Made by a program: the position numbers and the translations under genes. Below, one piece after another: positions 15,181 through 50,280 of a stretch of DNA of 54,979 bases; position 1 is the first letter of the stretch; each line of letters starts with the position of its first letter. The DNA lies in contig JAJYHZ010000003.1 of assembly GCA_021796335.1 (NCBI GenBank), positions 1 through 54,979 of the forward strand, given 5' to 3'. This DNA comes from a bacterium. GTDB lineage: Bacteria > Patescibacteriota > Minisyncoccia > UBA6257 > UBA9933. The notes beneath the pieces were generated by a model. It was not told the DNA's origin. It ran no database searches and was given only the letters and a program-made list of their open reading frames with translations.

Positions 15181-15219
15181 ATGAAAAGTATAAAGTAAAA
15201 TGGAAAATGGAAAAAGTAA

Positions 15220-15257
15220 AGTAGGGAGAGATAAAAAAAGTAGGGAGAGATAAAAAA
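15220..15257. repeat. 19-bp tandem duplication in the smpB leader
   Basis: Two exact tandem copies of AGTAGGGAGAGATAAAAAA lie between the upstream terminator and smpB. Confidence 0.85.
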
Positions 15258-15284: not shown

Positions 15285-15485
15285 TCAAAAGAACCGATTG
15301 GGGAAGATTTGACCATCGATTTCGATAAAATAGCCCGCTTCTATTTCACTTTTCAGTACTTTACGGGCCAGGGATTTAGTTATGTTCTCATCAGCAATCC
15401 GAAGAAATTCTTCTTCAGATAAGCCCCGCATTCCTTTTTTGGCGATTTCTTGGTCCAAATAATTCAACCACCATCGTGATGACAT
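15285..15485 (-). CDS. Small hypothetical protein with strong Shine-Dalgarno-like leader
   Basis: This is a 66-residue product starting MSSRWWLNYLDQEIAKKG and containing GLSEEEFLRIADENITKSLA. Its alternating helices could be a small helix-turn-helix or protein-binding module; no family is recognised. It is an isolated transcription unit with a strong terminator. Upstream of the ATG is AAAGGTGGTGAG, a clear Shine-Dalgarno-like stretch. That is rare in this window, where most genes have none and the 16S lacks the matching tail. This may indicate acquisition or a special mode of translation. Confidence 0.65.
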   Translation of the reverse strand: MSSRWWLNYLDQEIAKKGMRGLSEEEFLRIADENITKSLARKVLKSEIEAGYFIEIDGQIFPNRFF

Positions 15486-15662
15486 CCACTCACCACCTTT
15501 CGGATATGAATTTTGTAGTTTCTGAATTTATTATATTATTATTTTTTAAAAAATAAAATAATTTTGTGCGGGGTTTTAATTTATAAATCTTTCACTTAAA
15601 ATGAATTATGCATCCGAATAGCGTATTATTCCGCTAAGCGAGGTGTCCATTTGAATTAATTT

Positions 15663-17378
15663 ATGATTAAAGAACGGATTTATTCTTATTTAGTTAAAGC
15701 GACAAATAAAAAAGATATTGAAATTTCCATGCCAGAAAACGGAAAATTCGGGCATTATTCGACTAATATCGCTTTGAAATTGGCTAAAGACTTGAAAAAA
15801 AGTCCTATGGAATTGGCTGAAAACATTGCGGTGGAAATTAAAAAGAAAGCGCCGAATGATTTTTTTAAAAAAGTAGAAGTTATTTCGCCGGGTTTTATAA
15901 ATTTTTTTCTTTCCAATAAAGCGTTTCAGGATGAATTTTGGGAAATATATAAGGAAGGGAAAAAATGGGGTAAACCTAAAAAAAGTAAAAAACAAACAGT
16001 TGTTATAGATTATTCGGCGCCGAATATCGCTAAGCCGATGAGCGTGGGACATTTAAGATCGACCATCATCGGACAAGCGCTTTATAATGTTTTTAAATTC
16101 AGCGGATGGAAAACAATCGGAGATAATCATTTGGGGGATTGGGGAAAACAATTTGGGATTTTAATCGCGGCTTATAAAGAGCGATTAAAAGCTAAAGACA
16201 AAAAACTAAAAAATATTTCGATTGATGAGCTGATGCGGGTATATGTCGATTATAACGCGCAGATGAAAGAAAATCCGGAATTGGAAGAAAGAGCACGTTT
16301 GGAGATTAAAAAATTGCAAAAAGGAAACAAGGAAAATATCGGGATTTGGAATAAATTCCGGAAGATAAGCCTGGATGAGTTTAAAAAGATTTATAAAATT
16401 TTAGGAATCAAGTTTGATTATTGTTTCGGGGAGAGTTTTTATAACAAGATGCTTCCGGGAATCGTGAAAGAAGCCTTGGATAAAAATGCGGCGGTTGAAA
16501 GCGAGGGCGCTACGGTAATTCCTGTCGAGGGCGACGAAACCCCGCTTATGATTCAAAAATCGGACGGAGCATTTTTGTATACAACCACCGATCTTGCTAC
16601 GGTTAAATTTAGGGTTAAAAAATTTAAGCCGGACTTAATTTTATATGCGGTTGGCAGCGAACAGGGGTTTTATTTTTCACAGCTGTTTAAGGCGGTTAAG
16701 AAACTTGATTTTGCCAAAAAAGCAAAATTAACCCATGTTAATTTTGGGTTGTTGCTGGGAGAAGATTTGAAAAAATTTTCGACCAGGGCGGGTAGGCATG
16801 TGTCGCTTGAGGGATTGATAAAGGAATCAATCGATCGCGCCCGGAAAATTGCAGAAGAGAAGCAGCCCGGTATTTCTAAATCAGACAAAGAAAAAATAGC
16901 GAAAATAGTTGGCGTGGGCGCCGTAAAATACAACGATTTATCGCAAAACAGGGAATCGAATATTATTTTCGATTGGGATAAAATGCTGAATTTAGAAGGG
17001 AATTCAGCGCCTTATTTGCAATATACTTACGCCCGTTTGCGCAATGTACTGCGCAAAGCGCGTATGCTAAAAGGCAAAAAGCAAAAGCCAAAAGCGAGCG
17101 CGGAATTTCTAAATGAGCCGATTGAAATAAGTTTAATTTTTCATTTGTCGCAATTTCCGGATGTGATCAAGCGAATAACGGAATTTTATTACCCGCATTA
17201 TTTGGCTGATTATTTGTTTGACTTGGCGAAAATGGCAAATGTATTCTATCAGAATATCCCGGTTCTAAAATCCAATCCGGAGGTTCGGGAAGCCCGTCTG
17301 TCTTTAGTTAAGACTGTCTCAGATGTTTTGAAAACCGGGCTGAATCTTTTAGGGATCGAAGCGCTTGAAAAAATGTAA
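15663..17378 (+). CDS. argS: Arginyl-tRNA synthetase
   Basis: This is a 571-residue class I synthetase. The N-terminal Arg-specific domain is recognisable (NGKFGHYSTNIALKLAK and then SPGFINFFLS). The HIGH-type signature is SVGHLRSTIIG after DYSAPNIAKPM, and the KMSKS-equivalent loop is FSTRAGRHVSLEGL, the divergent form normal for ArgRS. NHLGDWGKQFG and the anticodon-binding helical domain (SAPYLQYTYARL) follow. Only one base separates it from the next gene, so the two are cotranscribed. Confidence 0.97.
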   Translation: MIKERIYSYLVKATNKKDIEISMPENGKFGHYSTNIALKLAKDLKKSPMELAENIAVEIKKKAPNDFFKKVEVISPGFINFFLSNKAFQDEFWEIYKEGKKWGKPKKSKKQTVVIDYSAPNIAKPMSVGHLRSTIIGQALYNVFKFSGWKTIGDNHLGDWGKQFGILIAAYKERLKAKDKKLKNISIDELMRVYVDYNAQMKENPELEERARLEIKKLQKGNKENIGIWNKFRKISLDEFKKIYKILGIKFDYCFGESFYNKMLPGIVKEALDKNAAVESEGATVIPVEGDETPLMIQKSDGAFLYTTTDLATVKFRVKKFKPDLILYAVGSEQGFYFSQLFKAVKKLDFAKKAKLTHVNFGLLLGEDLKKFSTRAGRHVSLEGLIKESIDRARKIAEEKQPGISKSDKEKIAKIVGVGAVKYNDLSQNRESNIIFDWDKMLNLEGNSAPYLQYTYARLRNVLRKARMLKGKKQKPKASAEFLNEPIEISLIFHLSQFPDVIKRITEFYYPHYLADYLFDLAKMANVFYQNIPVLKSNPEVREARLSLVKTVSDVLKTGLNLLGIEALEKM

Positions 17379-17379
17379 T

Positions 17380-18273
17380 ATGAAAAAGAAGATCGCCTTT
17401 CTATTTTTTATCTTACTGGTTTTGCTCCTGGGATTTTTTCTGGTTACTTATCAGAAAAATGATTATTTATTTTTTTCCGGGGCCGATCAGAATCCAAACG
17501 GCATAACTTTTGTTTTGTTCGGAAGGACCGGAAAGGTTATCGGATGGAATATGTCTCCGGATTTGACGGATACAATTATGGTCGTTGATTATCGTCCGAA
17601 TATAGGGGTGGTAAATTTAATTTCTTTACCGCGGGATTTATACGTTAATCTTGACGGAGAAAATTTTAAGCTGAACGAAGTCGTCGAGCGGGGGAAGGTG
17701 GATGATTTTTTAAATAATTTACTGCCTGAGTTAACCGGGCTCCAAACAAACAATTATGCCATTGTCGATATCGGTTTATTGCAGAAAATCGTCGATAATT
17801 TAGGAGGCATAGATGTCGATTTGAAATCACCGTTAACAGACTGGGCAAGCGGATACACTATCCAAGCCGGCAATCAGCATTTGGACGGCACGCAAGTCGT
17901 GTGGCTGGTGCGAAATCGATACGCGCCCAACGGAGATTTTTTCCGTGAAAAAAATCAGCATCAAATAATTCAAACAATCGCCCAAAAAATAGAAGGCTTA
18001 AACGCCTTGGAAAAAACCGCGTTTTTATTCAAACTGACTCCGGATTTGGCAACAAGCATAAATACGAATATGAATCCGCAAATCTTCATTACTCTAATGG
18101 AAAAATTCCACAGTGTGAGGTTTAATGATGTGGTAATGGATTTTGGTTCCGGATTGTTAGAGAGCGCCACAACAACAGCCGGAAGTTCGACAGAAGACAT
18201 TTTATTGCCCGTGAAAGGATCGGATAATTACGACAATATAAGAAATTATATTGAATCAAAATTAGAAAAATAA
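17380..18273 (+). CDS. LytR-CpsA-Psr (LCP) family membrane protein
   Basis: This is a 297-residue protein with one N-terminal membrane helix (about residues 5-25) and an extracellular LCP domain. Motifs: DTIMVVDYRPNIGVVNLISL followed by PRDLYV, then LGGIDVDL and RNRYAPNGDFFREKNQHQ, the Arg/Asp-rich lipid-phosphate site. LCP enzymes transfer glycopolymers from a lipid carrier to the cell wall, so it probably decorates the surface. The ATG at 17380, one base after argS, is preferred to a TTG at 17365 inside argS. Confidence 0.88.
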   Translation: MKKKIAFLFFILLVLLLGFFLVTYQKNDYLFFSGADQNPNGITFVLFGRTGKVIGWNMSPDLTDTIMVVDYRPNIGVVNLISLPRDLYVNLDGENFKLNEVVERGKVDDFLNNLLPELTGLQTNNYAIVDIGLLQKIVDNLGGIDVDLKSPLTDWASGYTIQAGNQHLDGTQVVWLVRNRYAPNGDFFREKNQHQIIQTIAQKIEGLNALEKTAFLFKLTPDLATSINTNMNPQIFITLMEKFHSVRFNDVVMDFGSGLLESATTTAGSSTEDILLPVKGSDNYDNIRNYIESKLEK

Positions 18274-18459
18274 TTTTTAAATTATAATTATTGTACGCTA
18301 TATTATACTGCAGCACGCGTAAAATATTTTAACCCGCCTCCGCATAGTTTTCCAATCAATAAGGCTGCGGGATACAAAACCTTTTCCGCTTCGGTGGATC
18401 TCAGCTTCAATGAACAGTCTAAATAAATTTCTCGACACCGTAGTAATGTCGGTGGAGTT

Positions 18460-19011
18460 TTAATTCGATGCGGACTGGAAAAGCTGAGAAATAATTTGAT
18501 CGAAAGTCTGGTTGATGATTTCCAAATTTTTCTTATTTATAGTATTGAGGACATAACTGTCGGCTTTTAATCTATTTGGAAGGCCGATGCCGATTCTGAG
18601 TCGTCCGAAATTTTTAGTTCCCAGGCTTTTAATTATAGATTCGATTCCCCTATGGCCGGCCGAGCCGCGATCCATATCAAATTTGTATTTTCCCAATTCG
18701 ATATCGACATCATCGTGAGCGATTAAAATTTCTTCCGGTTTTATCGCCGATTTTCCCGCAGAAAAATATTTTAAGGCCGATAAAACCGACCCGCCGGATA
18801 AATTCATAAATGCCAGGGTTTTAACAATAATTGATTTATCGTTATTGATAAATTCAAAATTTTTGAATCTCGGTTTTTTGAATGGTTCATTCGGAGAAAA
18901 ATATTCGGCCAAATAGTCTATAAACATGCTGCCCGCGTTATGGTATGTTCGGCGATATTCTTGGCCGGGATTACCCAGCCCTATGATGATTTTAAAATTT
19001 TGTTTATTCAT
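18460..19011 (-). CDS. pth: Peptidyl-tRNA hydrolase
   Basis: This is a 183-residue enzyme that recycles peptidyl-tRNA dropped from ribosomes. IIGLGNPGQEYRRTYHNAG carries the catalytic His. LAFMNLSGGSV, LIAHDDVDIELGKYKF (conserved Asp) and GSAGHRGIESI follow in order. Length matches the family. It lies convergent with the LCP gene. The spacer 18274-18459 contains GC-rich pairing words (CCCGC/GCGGG) but no gene that I recognise. Confidence 0.96.
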   Translation of the reverse strand: MNKQNFKIIIGLGNPGQEYRRTYHNAGSMFIDYLAEYFSPNEPFKKPRFKNFEFINNDKSIIVKTLAFMNLSGGSVLSALKYFSAGKSAIKPEEILIAHDDVDIELGKYKFDMDRGSAGHRGIESIIKSLGTKNFGRLRIGIGLPNRLKADSYVLNTINKKNLEIINQTFDQIISQLFQSASN

Positions 19012-19132
19012 TCGTCTTATCTTCCAGGTTTTTTCGAAGAAAAATCAATAATCTTGGGGAATAGATTTAAATTATCGGGTTGACTTTAATTAATTTTATA
19101 TTAAAATTATAATAATTAAAACTCAGTAATGA

Positions 19133-19690
19133 ATGAAAATTTTTCTTTATACAATACGTGAGATCCTTGAGATCGTAATAAGCGCCGTTTTAGTTGTTAT
19201 AATCGTTCACCAGTTTCTGGTTCAGCCGGTTTTGGTAAGCGGATCGAGCATGGAGCCGAATTTTGAAAGCGGCGATTATATTCTTGTAAACGAGATTTCT
19301 TACCGTTTTCGAGAACCGCAGAGGGGAGAAGTCATCGTATTTCGTTTTCCTGGAGACAATAAAACTTTGTTTATAAAAAGAGTAATCGGGTTGCCCGGTG
19401 AACACGTTGTTATAACCGACGGCAAGGTGGAAATTTTCAATCAGCAAGACCCCAAAGGCATGGTCTTGGATGAAACCTATCTTCCGGCGAATATAAAAAC
19501 AACGGGAAATGTTGACGTAACCTTAAAAAATGACGAATATTTCGTATTAGGAGATAATAGGCCTGCGAGTTTCGATTCAAGGCAATGGGGAACTGTTAAA
19601 AAAAGCGAAATTATCGGCGACGTGTGGATGCGATTATGGCCGTTAAATAAAGTATCGGCTTTTGAAACGCCTTCATATCAGAACCAATGA
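19133..19690 (+). CDS. lepB: Signal peptidase I
   Basis: This is a 185-residue membrane protease that removes signal peptides. One N-terminal membrane helix (about residues 10-29) precedes VSGSSMEPNFESGDYILVNE with the nucleophilic Ser. FIKRVIGLPGE carries the general-base Lys and GDNRPASFDSRQWG is the conserved box E. Length is typical of the short Gram-positive-like form. It would process the secreted proteins of this window. The gene's end lies 10 bases before hisS. Confidence 0.96.
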   Translation: MKIFLYTIREILEIVISAVLVVIIVHQFLVQPVLVSGSSMEPNFESGDYILVNEISYRFREPQRGEVIVFRFPGDNKTLFIKRVIGLPGEHVVITDGKVEIFNQQDPKGMVLDETYLPANIKTTGNVDVTLKNDEYFVLGDNRPASFDSRQWGTVKKSEIIGDVWMRLWPLNKVSAFETPSYQNQ

Positions 19691-19700
19691 CTTGAAAGAA

Positions 19701-21014
19701 ATGCCAAAAACTACAGCAAAAAAACAAAAATCCGCAAAAGAGAAGAAATTATCTTACCAGTCTCCGAAAGGAATGCATGATATTCTGCCGGAGGATCAGC
19801 CTTTATGGGAAAAACTCAGGCAAACTGCAAAATCAACCGCGGATTTTTATAATTTTTCGCGGATAGACACTCCGATAGTGGAGGTGGCGGAACTTTTCGA
19901 GAGGAGCGCGGGAGTTTCTTCGGATATCGTGGAAAAACAAATGTATTTCGTAAAAACCAAAGGAGGCGATCGATTAGTCTTGCGTCCGGAAGCAACAGCT
20001 CCGGTTGTGCGCGCTTATTTCGAGCACGGATTATCGAGAATGGGCCAGCCGGTGAAACTTTATTATACGGGGCCGATTTTCAGATACGAACAGCCGCAAT
20101 CGGGAAGGTATCGGCAACATTATCAGGTAGGTTTTGAAATTTTGGGCGGAGAGAATGATCCGATTTACGATGCGCAGGCAATTTTGGCGCCGTACAAATT
20201 TCTGGAAGACGTGAAAATTAAGAATGTGATGGTGCATATCAACAGCATCGGATGCCCGAAGTGCAGGCCGAATTACCAGAAAAAATTGGAAGCCTATTAT
20301 AAAAAATATCAGAAAAAAATATGCAAAGATTGCCAGAGGAGGTTGGCGACAAATTCAATGAGGCTTTTGGACTGCAAAGAAGAAAAGTGCCAGCCGGTCA
20401 AAGCCGAGGCGCCGGTTATTTTGGATTACCTTTGCGAATCTTGTAAAAATCATTTTAAGAGAGTTCTGGAATTTTTGGATGAACTCAAGCTTCCTTACAT
20501 GATTGATCCTTACCTTGTCAGAGGGTTGGATTATTATAATAGAACAGTTTTTGAAATGTTCAGCGAAGGATTCAATTTCGCAATTGCAAGCGGCGGGCGA
20601 TATGACTATCTGGCGGAAATGCTGAGGCTCGGAAGATTGTCTGCGGTTGGCGGGAGCTTGGGTTTGGAAAGAATAGTCGAAGTTTTAAAGGAGTCCGGAA
20701 AATCGGCAGCCTTGCAAAAATATCAACCAAAAATTTTCTTCATCCACATCGGCGATGAAGCGAAGAAAAGAGGACTTGTCATGCTGGAAGAGTTTAAGAA
20801 ATCAGGCATAAAGGTTTCCGAATCGTTCGGCAAAGAATCTTTAAAATCTCAATTGCGTCTGGCGGATAAGGATAAAGCTCAGTTGGCTTTAATTCTAGGA
20901 CAAAAAGAAGTGTTTGAGGGAAGCATTATAATTCGTGATATGGTAAATGGCGCTCAGGAAACGGTCCCTTTGGAGAAAGTTGTAGAGGAGGTTAAAAGGA
21001 AGCTGCACAGTTAA
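19701..21014 (+). CDS. hisS: Histidyl-tRNA synthetase
   Basis: This is a 437-residue class II synthetase. Motif 2 is YYTGPIFRYEQPQSGRYRQH. The histidine-specific LVRGLDYYNRTVFEM and the late SGGRYDYLAEMLR follow. A Cys-rich insert (CPKCR, CKDCQRR, LDCKEEKC, CESC) is of the kind normal for bacterial HisRS. The C-terminal anticodon-binding domain begins near residue 345. The start is placed at ATG 19701, just after lepB, with a Lys-rich lead-in before SPKGMHDILPED. Confidence 0.96.
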   Translation: MPKTTAKKQKSAKEKKLSYQSPKGMHDILPEDQPLWEKLRQTAKSTADFYNFSRIDTPIVEVAELFERSAGVSSDIVEKQMYFVKTKGGDRLVLRPEATAPVVRAYFEHGLSRMGQPVKLYYTGPIFRYEQPQSGRYRQHYQVGFEILGGENDPIYDAQAILAPYKFLEDVKIKNVMVHINSIGCPKCRPNYQKKLEAYYKKYQKKICKDCQRRLATNSMRLLDCKEEKCQPVKAEAPVILDYLCESCKNHFKRVLEFLDELKLPYMIDPYLVRGLDYYNRTVFEMFSEGFNFAIASGGRYDYLAEMLRLGRLSAVGGSLGLERIVEVLKESGKSAALQKYQPKIFFIHIGDEAKKRGLVMLEEFKKSGIKVSESFGKESLKSQLRLADKDKAQLALILGQKEVFEGSIIIRDMVNGAQETVPLEKVVEEVKRKLHS

Positions 21015-21044
21015 ATTTCTAATTAATCTATTATTCTAAATTCT

Positions 21045-21084
21045 AATAAGCCGGATTTATATTCAGAAATTAGGATTTAGAAAT
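21045..21084. repeat. Hairpin in the hisS-HIT spacer
   Basis: TTCTAAATTCTAAT pairs with ATTAGGATTTAGAA (one mismatch), with the loop around 21059-21070. It is another spacer hairpin made of local words. Confidence 0.55.
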
Positions 21085-21093
21085 TTTGTTTTA

Positions 21094-21507
21094 ATGCCGG
21101 ATTGTTTGTTTTGTAAAATTATAAACAAGGAAGTTTCCGGAAAAATTATTTATGAAGATGAAGATACAATTGCGGTGTTGGATGTTTTTCCGCGCGCGCC
21201 CGGTCATGCGATGGTGATTCCGAAAGTTCACGCCGAAAATATTTTGGAATTGCCGGATGATAAAGTCGGTCCGGTTTTCGAAACTGTTAAGAAAATGACC
21301 GCCAAAATAAAAAAAGCTTTGAATCCCGACGGCTTTACAATAGGCATCAACCATGGTAAGGTGAGTGGGCAAGCAATTAATCATTTGCATGTCCATATTC
21401 TCCCGAGATGGGAAAACGACGGAGGCGGTTCGGTCCATTCCGTGGTAAATAATCCGCCAAAGGAATCACTGGATGAAATTTTGAAAAAAATAAAACAAAT
21501 ATCGTAA
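21094..21507 (+). CDS. HIT family nucleotide hydrolase
   Basis: This is a 137-residue histidine-triad protein. HLHVHILPR (about residues 96-104) is the HIT motif with the nucleophilic His. The N-terminal CLFCKI is half of the zinc site of the HinT branch, and VLDVFPRAPGHAMVIPK is typical. It probably hydrolyses nucleoside phosphoramidates or AMP-linked compounds. It sits between hisS and rpsU in one direction. Confidence 0.92.
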   Translation: MPDCLFCKIINKEVSGKIIYEDEDTIAVLDVFPRAPGHAMVIPKVHAENILELPDDKVGPVFETVKKMTAKIKKALNPDGFTIGINHGKVSGQAINHLHVHILPRWENDGGGSVHSVVNNPPKESLDEILKKIKQIS

Positions 21508-21568
21508 GCCAAAAGTCAAAATTAAAAATTTAAATAATAATTTTGAATTTTGTCTTTTTAAATTTTTT

Positions 21569-21778
21569 ATGGAAGTCAAAAGAAAAGAAGGAGAATCAGT
21601 CAGCGCATTTTTGTACCGTTTTACGAAAAAAATGCAGCAAAGCGGAGTTTTGCGTGAAGCCAAAAAACGAAGGGCTCATAACAGAACAGTAAGCCGCGTA
21701 AAGAGAAAGGCGGCGGCTTTATACAGAAATAAAAAGCAAGCGGAACTGGGTAAGGCAAAGAAACTTGGGAAAAAGTAA
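21569..21778 (+). CDS. rpsU: Ribosomal protein bS21
   Basis: This is a 69-residue, very basic protein. VKRKEGESVSAFLYRFTKKM and then LREAKKRRAHNRTVSRVKRK match S21. In bacteria S21 sits near the 16S 3' tail and helps mRNA entry, which is relevant because that tail is atypical here. The usual partner yqeY-like gene follows, as in many genomes. Confidence 0.93.
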   Translation: MEVKRKEGESVSAFLYRFTKKMQQSGVLREAKKRRAHNRTVSRVKRKAAALYRNKKQAELGKAKKLGKK

Positions 21779-21872
21779 ATTATCTGACTACGGACCACAG
21801 GCTACGGACTATAGAAATTTAGATCTATTCTTCTATTTTTTCCGTAGATTGTAGGCAGTAGCATGTAAATTT

Positions 21873-22325
21873 TTGTTGGAGCGAATAAATAATAATCTTA
21901 AAGAAGCTTTGAAAGCCGGCAATTCCGAGAAAGCCGGCGTTTTGCGCATGTTGGTTGCCGCAGTAAAAAACAAGGAAATTGAAAAAAGAGGAAAAGGCGG
22001 AGAGCCGATTCTGACTAATGACGAGATTGTCGATGTGCTGTCTCGAGAAGCGAAAAAAAGGAGGGAATCAATCGAGGTTTACAAACAGGGCGGGCGCGAG
22101 GAACTGGCTCAAAAAGAATCAGCCGAGCTGGCGATAATACAGCAATATTTGCCAGAGCAATTATCGGAACAGGAAATTGAAAAAATTATTGATGAGGCAA
22201 TAGCAAAAACCGGAGCAAACTCAATAGGTGATCTGGGAAAAGTAATGGGCGAGGTGACAAAACAAATAAGAGGAAAAGCGGATGGCAAGTTGGTGAGCGA
22301 GATTGTGAAAAGGAAATTACAATAG
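21873..22325 (+). CDS. GatB/YqeY domain protein
   Basis: This is a 150-residue protein starting with a TTG at 21873, the only initiator that keeps the family N-terminus (LERINNNLKEALKAGNSEKA). RMLVAAVKNKEIEKR, then AAKKRRESIEVYKQGGREEL-like sequence and QQYLPEQLSEQEIE match YqeY. The fold resembles the tRNA-binding tail of GatB, and its function is unproved. It follows rpsU across a 94-base spacer (21779-21872) that holds an imperfect hairpin of GACTACGG/CCGTAG words. Confidence 0.88.
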   Translation: MLERINNNLKEALKAGNSEKAGVLRMLVAAVKNKEIEKRGKGGEPILTNDEIVDVLSREAKKRRESIEVYKQGGREELAQKESAELAIIQQYLPEQLSEQEIEKIIDEAIAKTGANSIGDLGKVMGEVTKQIRGKADGKLVSEIVKRKLQ

Positions 22326-22357
22326 CAATGAGTTATTAGTAATTAGAAATTGATAAT

Positions 22358-22379
22358 CGGCGTGCGAACGCCGTTTTTT
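22358..22379 (+). terminator. Rho-independent terminator after the YqeY-like gene
   Basis: CGGCGT (22358-22363), loop GCGA, ACGCCG (22368-22373), then TTTTTT. Confidence 0.9.
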
Positions 22380-22471
22380 GATTCCGTCCATAAATATAAC
22401 TGACGAGCCGAACTTGCATTTGTTTGAAGATGTGTTATAAATAATTCAGAAACTTGAAGGAGGTGAGAAAA

Positions 22472-22645
22472 ATGAATCGAGTTACTGCCTGCGGTTGCGG
22501 GCGGATAAAAGAAAACAGTTTTTGGCGCGATACTGAGCCTAAGCGGGATTATCCCGCTATAGGCCAGTTTGGCGTAAAGTTCGAGCAGTGTGATCGCTGC
22601 TCGGGCCGGAAGTCGGACTCGGCTGAGTCCGCTCCGAAGAAATAA
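22472..22645 (+). CDS. Small Cys-rich protein with a strong Shine-Dalgarno-like leader
   Basis: This is a 57-residue product, MNRVTACGCGRIKENS, with a later EQCDRCSGRKSD. The Cys pairs could form a zinc ribbon; no family is recognised. AAGGAGGTGAG lies directly before the ATG, the best Shine-Dalgarno in the window although the 16S lacks its partner. The coding stretch is GC-richer than its surroundings and contains perfect stems (AGCGGGAT/ATCCCGCT, CGGACTC/GAGTCCG, GAGCAG/CTGCTC). It could therefore be a structured RNA instead of, or as well as, a gene. A strong terminator follows. Confidence 0.55.
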   Translation: MNRVTACGCGRIKENSFWRDTEPKRDYPAIGQFGVKFEQCDRCSGRKSDSAESAPKK

Positions 22646-22666
22646 TTTTCATGTTTTTTGTTCAGG

Positions 22667-22690
22667 GGGGCCGTTTCGGCCCCTTTTTTA
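22667..22690 (+). terminator. Strong rho-independent terminator
   Basis: GGGGCCG (22667-22673), loop TTT, CGGCCCC (22677-22683), then a run of Ts. Confidence 0.93.
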
Positions 22691-34552: not shown

Positions 34553-36073
<1,521 letters not shown>

Positions 36074-36088
36074 ATTCAAGTGTCGTTC

Positions 36089-50029: not shown

Positions 50030-50280
50030 AGCAAGGGCAAGGTGGCATATGAAAATATCCGGTACTGCTAAAGTAGTGCGGCCGCAGCCGGATGTTGGCT
50101 TGAGCGGATTACGCCCCCTTTCTAATTCCACTCAAAAGCCCGGTAATGCTCCGGGGTATGCCACCGTCATTTTAAAATAATATTTTCAGAGAGGAGGTGT
50201 ATTAAAACCAAAGATCCTCTTAATCGGAGAGCGGATATGACTCTTGGAGAAATCAAAGGGGGCTGAAAGCCCTCTTTTTA
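50030..50280 (+). ncRNA. Candidate structured RNA 2, junction of stems plus terminator
   Basis: A promoter-like TTGAAA and TACAAT spaced 16 bases lies near 49997-50024. GGTGGCATA (50041-50049) pairs with TATGCCACC (50157-50165). Inside are ATCCGG/CCGGAT (50057-50093), GGCTTGAG/CTCAAAAGCC (50097-50140) and CCGG/CCGG (50140-50154), a four-way junction. AGAGGA/TCCTCT (50189-50220) follows, and a terminator AGGGGGCT/AGCCCTCT then Ts (50257-50280) ends it. A 43-codon ORF from 50049 to 50180 lies within it, so an RNA-plus-peptide function is possible. Confidence 0.6.
50049..50180 (+). CDS. Possible 43-residue peptide inside structured RNA 2
   Basis: ATG at 50049 to TAA at 50178-50180 encodes a basic, Gly/Pro-rich peptide (MKISGTAKVVRPQPDVGLSG at the start). 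AAGGTGG precedes the ATG. The start codon lies within the closing stem. Codon use is GC-rich for this genome. Alternatively the frame is open by chance inside the RNA structure. Confidence 0.3.
   Translation: MKISGTAKVVRPQPDVGLSGLRPLSNSTQKPGNAPGYATVILK

Follow-up and report, generated by a model that had tools for sequence, protein, structure and literature searches.

Two small genes in the 54,979-nt stretch of DNA analyzed here (the window) carry strong Shine-Dalgarno (SD) leaders in a genome whose 16S rRNA lacks the anti-SD sequence, and both leaders belong to a family-wide class of small SD-led genes. We consider it somewhat better than an even bet (a probability of roughly 0.55) that this class represents a pool of mobile accessory genes, each organized as a promoter-SD-ORF-terminator unit, the SD of which reflects evolution in SD-using cells.

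The leader AAGGAGGTGAG was found at 22457–22467 on the + strand, upstream of the ATG at 22472 that opens a hairpin-rich 57-codon ORF with a CxC...CDRC pattern (22472–22645; P0001). Its promoter is predicted from the sequence to be TTGCAT-16-TATAAA at 22414–22441, and the putative initial transcribed sequence CAGAAACT is located at 22447–22454. On the − strand, AAAGGTGGTGAG is located at 15500–15489 upstream of the ATG at 15485, the start of a gene encoding 66 residues (15285–15485; P0002). Here a putative −10-like TATAAT is seen at 15530–15535, and the same CAGAAACT at 15517–15524. Both genes have the purine-rich SD a few nt 5′ of the start codon. The predicted pairing energies with the canonical anti-SD are −18.0 kcal/mol for the 22472 leader and −13.4 kcal/mol for the 15485 leader; among 249 ordinary genes, 0.4% have a predicted pairing below −12 kcal/mol. 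A single copy of GAGGTGAGNNNNATG was found in 752,648 bases. A simple scan detected the intrinsic terminator of the 66-residue gene (15280–15256, −) and missed the strong one of the 57-codon gene (22665–22689, +), which folding displayed as a stem at ~22667–22683 followed by a T-run. The textbook leaders and the terminators that an initial annotation of this DNA had assigned to the two genes are thus confirmed.

Both window genes (22436–22454, +; 15535–15517, −) and two more SD-led genes in this genome, a 47-residue gene at L007:3865 (L007:3829–3847) and a gene near L006:12800 (L006:12782–12800), have the same succession of upstream elements, namely a −10 element, CAGAAACT and an SD. The products of the two window genes and of the 47-residue gene are mutually unrelated. 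Within the order, 22 matches to the pattern CAGAAACT...AGGWGG...ATG were listed, of which three belong to this genome, versus ~8 for the reversed pattern. We also observed a tandem copy of AGTAGGGAGAGATAAAAAA at 15218–15256, directly past the terminator of the 66-residue gene.

The 16S gene spans 34553–36073 and is followed by GTGGATCAATTAAACTATTCAAG as its 3′ end. The tail, GGATCAATTAAACTATTC, has no CCTCC, nor does the rest of the gene, and the 3′ region GGATCAATTAAACTATTCAA (36060–36080, +) is without an anti-SD. 16S matches were obtained in 18 of the 22 family genomes and the 3′ region was legible in 17, this genome included (the stretch fetched from G014 did not show the tail). Each of the 17 legible sequences ends in a tail of the AATTAAA type that is free of CCTCC; G012 has a CCTCC farther downstream of the tail, within an apparent hairpin. 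The missing anti-SD is thus a family trait, and the premise that the 16S tail offers no match is borne out for this genome and 16 relatives. The loss probably predates the family, judging from the 26 matches to GGATCACCTCC that we read elsewhere in the order: 25 were located outside a 16S context and one (G070) in an ordinary-looking 16S gene. CCUCC loss has already been published for some CPR lineages (PMC10783764), and genome size, the 16S gene and the literature suggest that this genome, too, is that of a CPR bacterium. A search for a second, anti-SD-bearing 16S gene in this genome found none, and regions upstream of genes showed no enrichment of pairing with the genome's own 16S tail. An internal CCUCC of the 16S rRNA as a substitute anti-SD was rejected, since it was not conserved in the 16S genes read.

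Some further features of these 16S genes were seen. In the family tail (window 36028–36080; L035–L052) the GAUCA motif is often gone along with CCUCC, but the strong conservation of the AATTAAA that follows helix 45 gives the impression of a separate role for this sequence. The 16S genes in L046, L050 and L051 (G012, G015 and G001) span 2.0–3.0 kb and hold large insertions, possibly introns. The intact anti-SD tail in G070 (L192, G070:C18) is on a 16 kb contig that may be foreign.

Ordinary genes showed no SD excess. The genome statistics were drawn from a sample of 295 kb (39% of the genome), in which GGAGG preceded 5 of 248 ATG genes and was found 5 times in reversed leaders. SD sites are thus scarce genome-wide, as the initial annotation had supposed. 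The candidate motif AAGGWGGTG was rejected as a genome-wide signal, its count being equal to that of the reversed motif. A pairing with the canonical anti-SD below −10 kcal/mol was predicted for 2.8% of the genes versus 0.4% of shuffled leaders, which indicates a small but real tail of SD-like leaders that includes both window genes.

To survey the family we used the pattern AGGAGGTG-N2-12-ATG on 22 genomes, all of which gave matches. After setting aside the four noisier genomes of genus g16, we counted 106 sites with AGGAGGTG 2–12 nt before an ATG in 18 family genomes, versus 13 reversed-pattern controls (p = 3e-19). Of the 96 listed sites, 76 have a spacing of 4–7 nt between SD and ATG. In 55 of the 96 the next base after AGGAGGTG is an A, which lengthens the match to the canonical anti-SD. 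The g16 sites showed neither the spacing nor the next-base pattern.

This class, which the initial annotation did not describe, differs from other genes in several respects. In this genome an intrinsic terminator follows 11 of 16 SD-led genes of at least 80 aa versus 30 of 266 others, and 9 of the 16 are stand-alone genes of less than 170 aa versus 12 of the 266 (p = 9e-8); these counts are approximate because ORF calling relied on a simple script. The SD-led genes are mostly small and the majority have no Pfam match; 30 SD-led proteins gave 13 Pfam families, including replication-relaxation and Cro/cI-type HTH proteins, versus 58 families, rich in ribosomal proteins, for 67 ordinary small genes. 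Their Cys content is 2.3% versus 0.75%, their GC content is 0.036 above that of their neighbors in the family sample, and their coding RNA in this genome is more structured (mean z −1.2 versus −0.1). By Pfam or by our own naming, the members include zinc-ribbon-like proteins, ParB, response regulators, lipoproteins, a graspetide-like precursor paired with an ATP-grasp enzyme, and a nucleotide-synthesis cluster of dcd, thyX and tmk. This cluster is seen in the anti-SD-less genome G004 (L095:1980–6835), where dcd, thyX, tmk (with a weaker SD), a DUF4346 protein gene and a gene of unknown function are five SD-led neighbors. In G006 (L100:2471–15118) several neighboring genes, including an ATP-grasp gene, have a weaker purine leader, AAAAGAAAGAGAGGAT....

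The initial annotation suggested that the window genes may be recent arrivals. Patchy presence, the stand-alone layout and the GC and Cys shift of the class fit this, as does a non-syntenic SD-led block: in two genomes of a sister genus, which differ in their number of sites (11 versus 2), homology of the graspetide-like precursor and ATP-grasp pair (L123:3033–5053 and L128; 84% identity) sets in precisely at the SD and stops where the second gene ends, and the flanks are unrelated on both sides. The 57-codon gene was found in 1 of 244 order genomes and the 66-residue gene in 1 of 22 family genomes, in each case the genome itself. Hence, neither gene has relatives in the family, the 57-codon gene has none in the order, and no leader-less homolog of either occurs in close relatives. 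No donor emerged from the searches. Phages, plasmids and IMG/VR gave no homolog of either gene, and GTDB contigs gave none of the 66-residue protein; the cellular scope of the donor searches for the window proteins was close relatives. A lone GTDB match of the 66-residue protein, covering 15 residues in a MAG of the Rhodobacteraceae, was discarded as a chance match. For all class members tested we found no SD-using donor, and two SD-led families had no relatives in IMG/VR. Codon usage, a check proposed alongside, was split: GC3 is at the 99th percentile for the 57-codon gene and at the 50th for the 66-residue gene, whose GC content is also ordinary for the genome.

In the mobile-pool reading, both leaders would be true SD sequences in origin. 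Small accessory genes would be self-contained units of a promoter, a short SD leader, a small ORF and a terminator, which would circulate between genomes and would have been shaped where ribosomes read the SD. As the 16S tail of this lineage cannot pair with it, the SD would here most likely be a leftover signal that goes unread, and any translation of these genes here would follow the SD-less route used by the rest of the genome. If the SD marks imports in anti-SD-less lineages, the leader alone would be a simple tag for foreign or mobile genes, many of which encode unannotated small proteins. Homologs across several family genera mostly retain the SD at roughly 30–45% protein identity, and homologs outside the family mostly lack it. 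This would fit a gene pool living mainly where the SD matters, but would also fit a reader other than the 16S tail. Most relatives entered the sample by matching the pattern, and SD conservation in several gene families is therefore subject to ascertainment bias, from which the A2 family and the homologs found without SD bait are exempt. The A2 family counts against a dead relic. Its genes occur in four family genera and have kept the SD in each of them, at roughly 30–45% identity; two of them were identified from their protein sequence without recourse to the SD, and a relic should have decayed in four anti-SD-less genera unless the genes arrived separately.

A less likely alternative is that the SD is still used, i.e., that the class is an endogenous gene set under separate translational control, its leader being read not by the 16S tail but by, for instance, a CCUCC-bearing RNA or a protein. 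Besides A2, SD-led homologs of the ATP-grasp, lipoprotein and DUF4346 genes, found without SD bait in other genera or as paralogs, point in this direction, as do the full-length match to the canonical anti-SD and the common CAGAAACT, which suggests joint control. Against it, there is no conserved CCUCC in any 16S sequence read and no candidate reader was found; one homolog within the family (L101) and, in a different gene family (f9), three of four homologs lack the SD, and the number of sites varies strongly even within a genus. If selection does keep the SD in these cells, a reader other than the 16S tail would imply a new mode of translation control. The anti-SD-less lineage probably lives on a host cell, and we regard as unlikely the further reading that in such bacteria a special set of small genes retains functional SDs because these genes are translated under other conditions, be it through a hidden CCUCC-bearing RNA in the same cell or, after transfer, through the ribosomes of an SD-using host. 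The initial annotation had also raised the possibility of RNA elements in which the purine stretch has another role. This gained support for the 22472 locus, which may be a structured RNA: hairpins run through the entire ORF, and the whole transcript has a much more stable fold than shuffled sequence (z −7.7). Its own reading frame is not the best by codon score, the product gave no confident structure model (pLDDT 45), and the GC content of 0.53 exceeds the 0.40 of the genome. However, the ATG is suitably spaced from the SD, the ORF fits between the SD and the terminator with its stop just before the latter, a CxC...CxxC pattern like that of other SD-led proteins is present, and Rfam gave no match. 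The locus is thus ambiguous between a protein gene and a structured RNA, and that it and possibly a few others are non-coding is, in our judgment, rather improbable. The idea does not extend to the 66-residue gene, which has the same leader and a confidently predicted protein fold: single-sequence AlphaFold2 modeled a winged helix with three helices and two strands (pLDDT 82, pTM 0.64). The structural neighbors include DtxR, LexA and MCM8 winged-helix domains (TM 0.6–0.7; no PDB E-value below 0.1), and we found no match to a known sequence family. The model suggests that the product is probably a small DNA-binding protein. Finally, some listed sites fall within coding sequence or belong to fragmented assemblies, where they are on short contigs, as would be expected from chance matches or contamination. 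We consider this explanation highly improbable given the 8-fold excess and the spacing peak; moreover, both window genes share their contig with the 16S gene and are flanked by smpB/argS and by yqeY and an MFS gene, in a genome of 3 contigs with 0.11% contamination.

Phage "morons" and single-gene accessory cassettes are small genes with their own promoter and terminator and a patchy distribution. The window genes resemble them in all these respects, but there is no recognizable prophage at either gene and we identified no insertion signature. In Bacteroidota, the bS21 gene has a strong SD, and the anti-SD is present but occluded. In both cases the genome makes little use of SDs in general but has a few strong ones; the difference is that the anti-SD is absent here. 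Autoregulation of bS21 is discussed in PMC10783764. "SD-scarce" bacteria without CCUCC in the 16S rRNA include Campbellbacteria, Wolfebacteria, SR1 and Flavobacteriia (PMC10783764; PMC6107228). The present genome is similar to this group in its 16S tail and in having no genome-wide SD. In contrast to those surveys, in which the SD is absent genome-wide, a small class with a full, well-spaced SD persists here; the literature searched did not describe a class of this kind.

A third purine site had been placed inside a separate structured RNA termed RNA 2 (z −3.3 and −3.2). The sequence is indeed present, as GAGGAGGTG at ~50191, but it is not an SD-type site. A predicted hairpin containing GAGAGGAGGTG (50188–50221, +) pairs it with CCUCUU, and it has no start codon at a usable distance; it is therefore not of the same kind as the two leaders. 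A comparison of RNA 2 with Rfam gave noise only and no family. In the body of RNA 2 (50036–50180), a closing stem formed by GGUGGCAUA and UAUGCCACC buries AAGGTGGCATATG, which would otherwise be a possible start of a 43-codon ORF.
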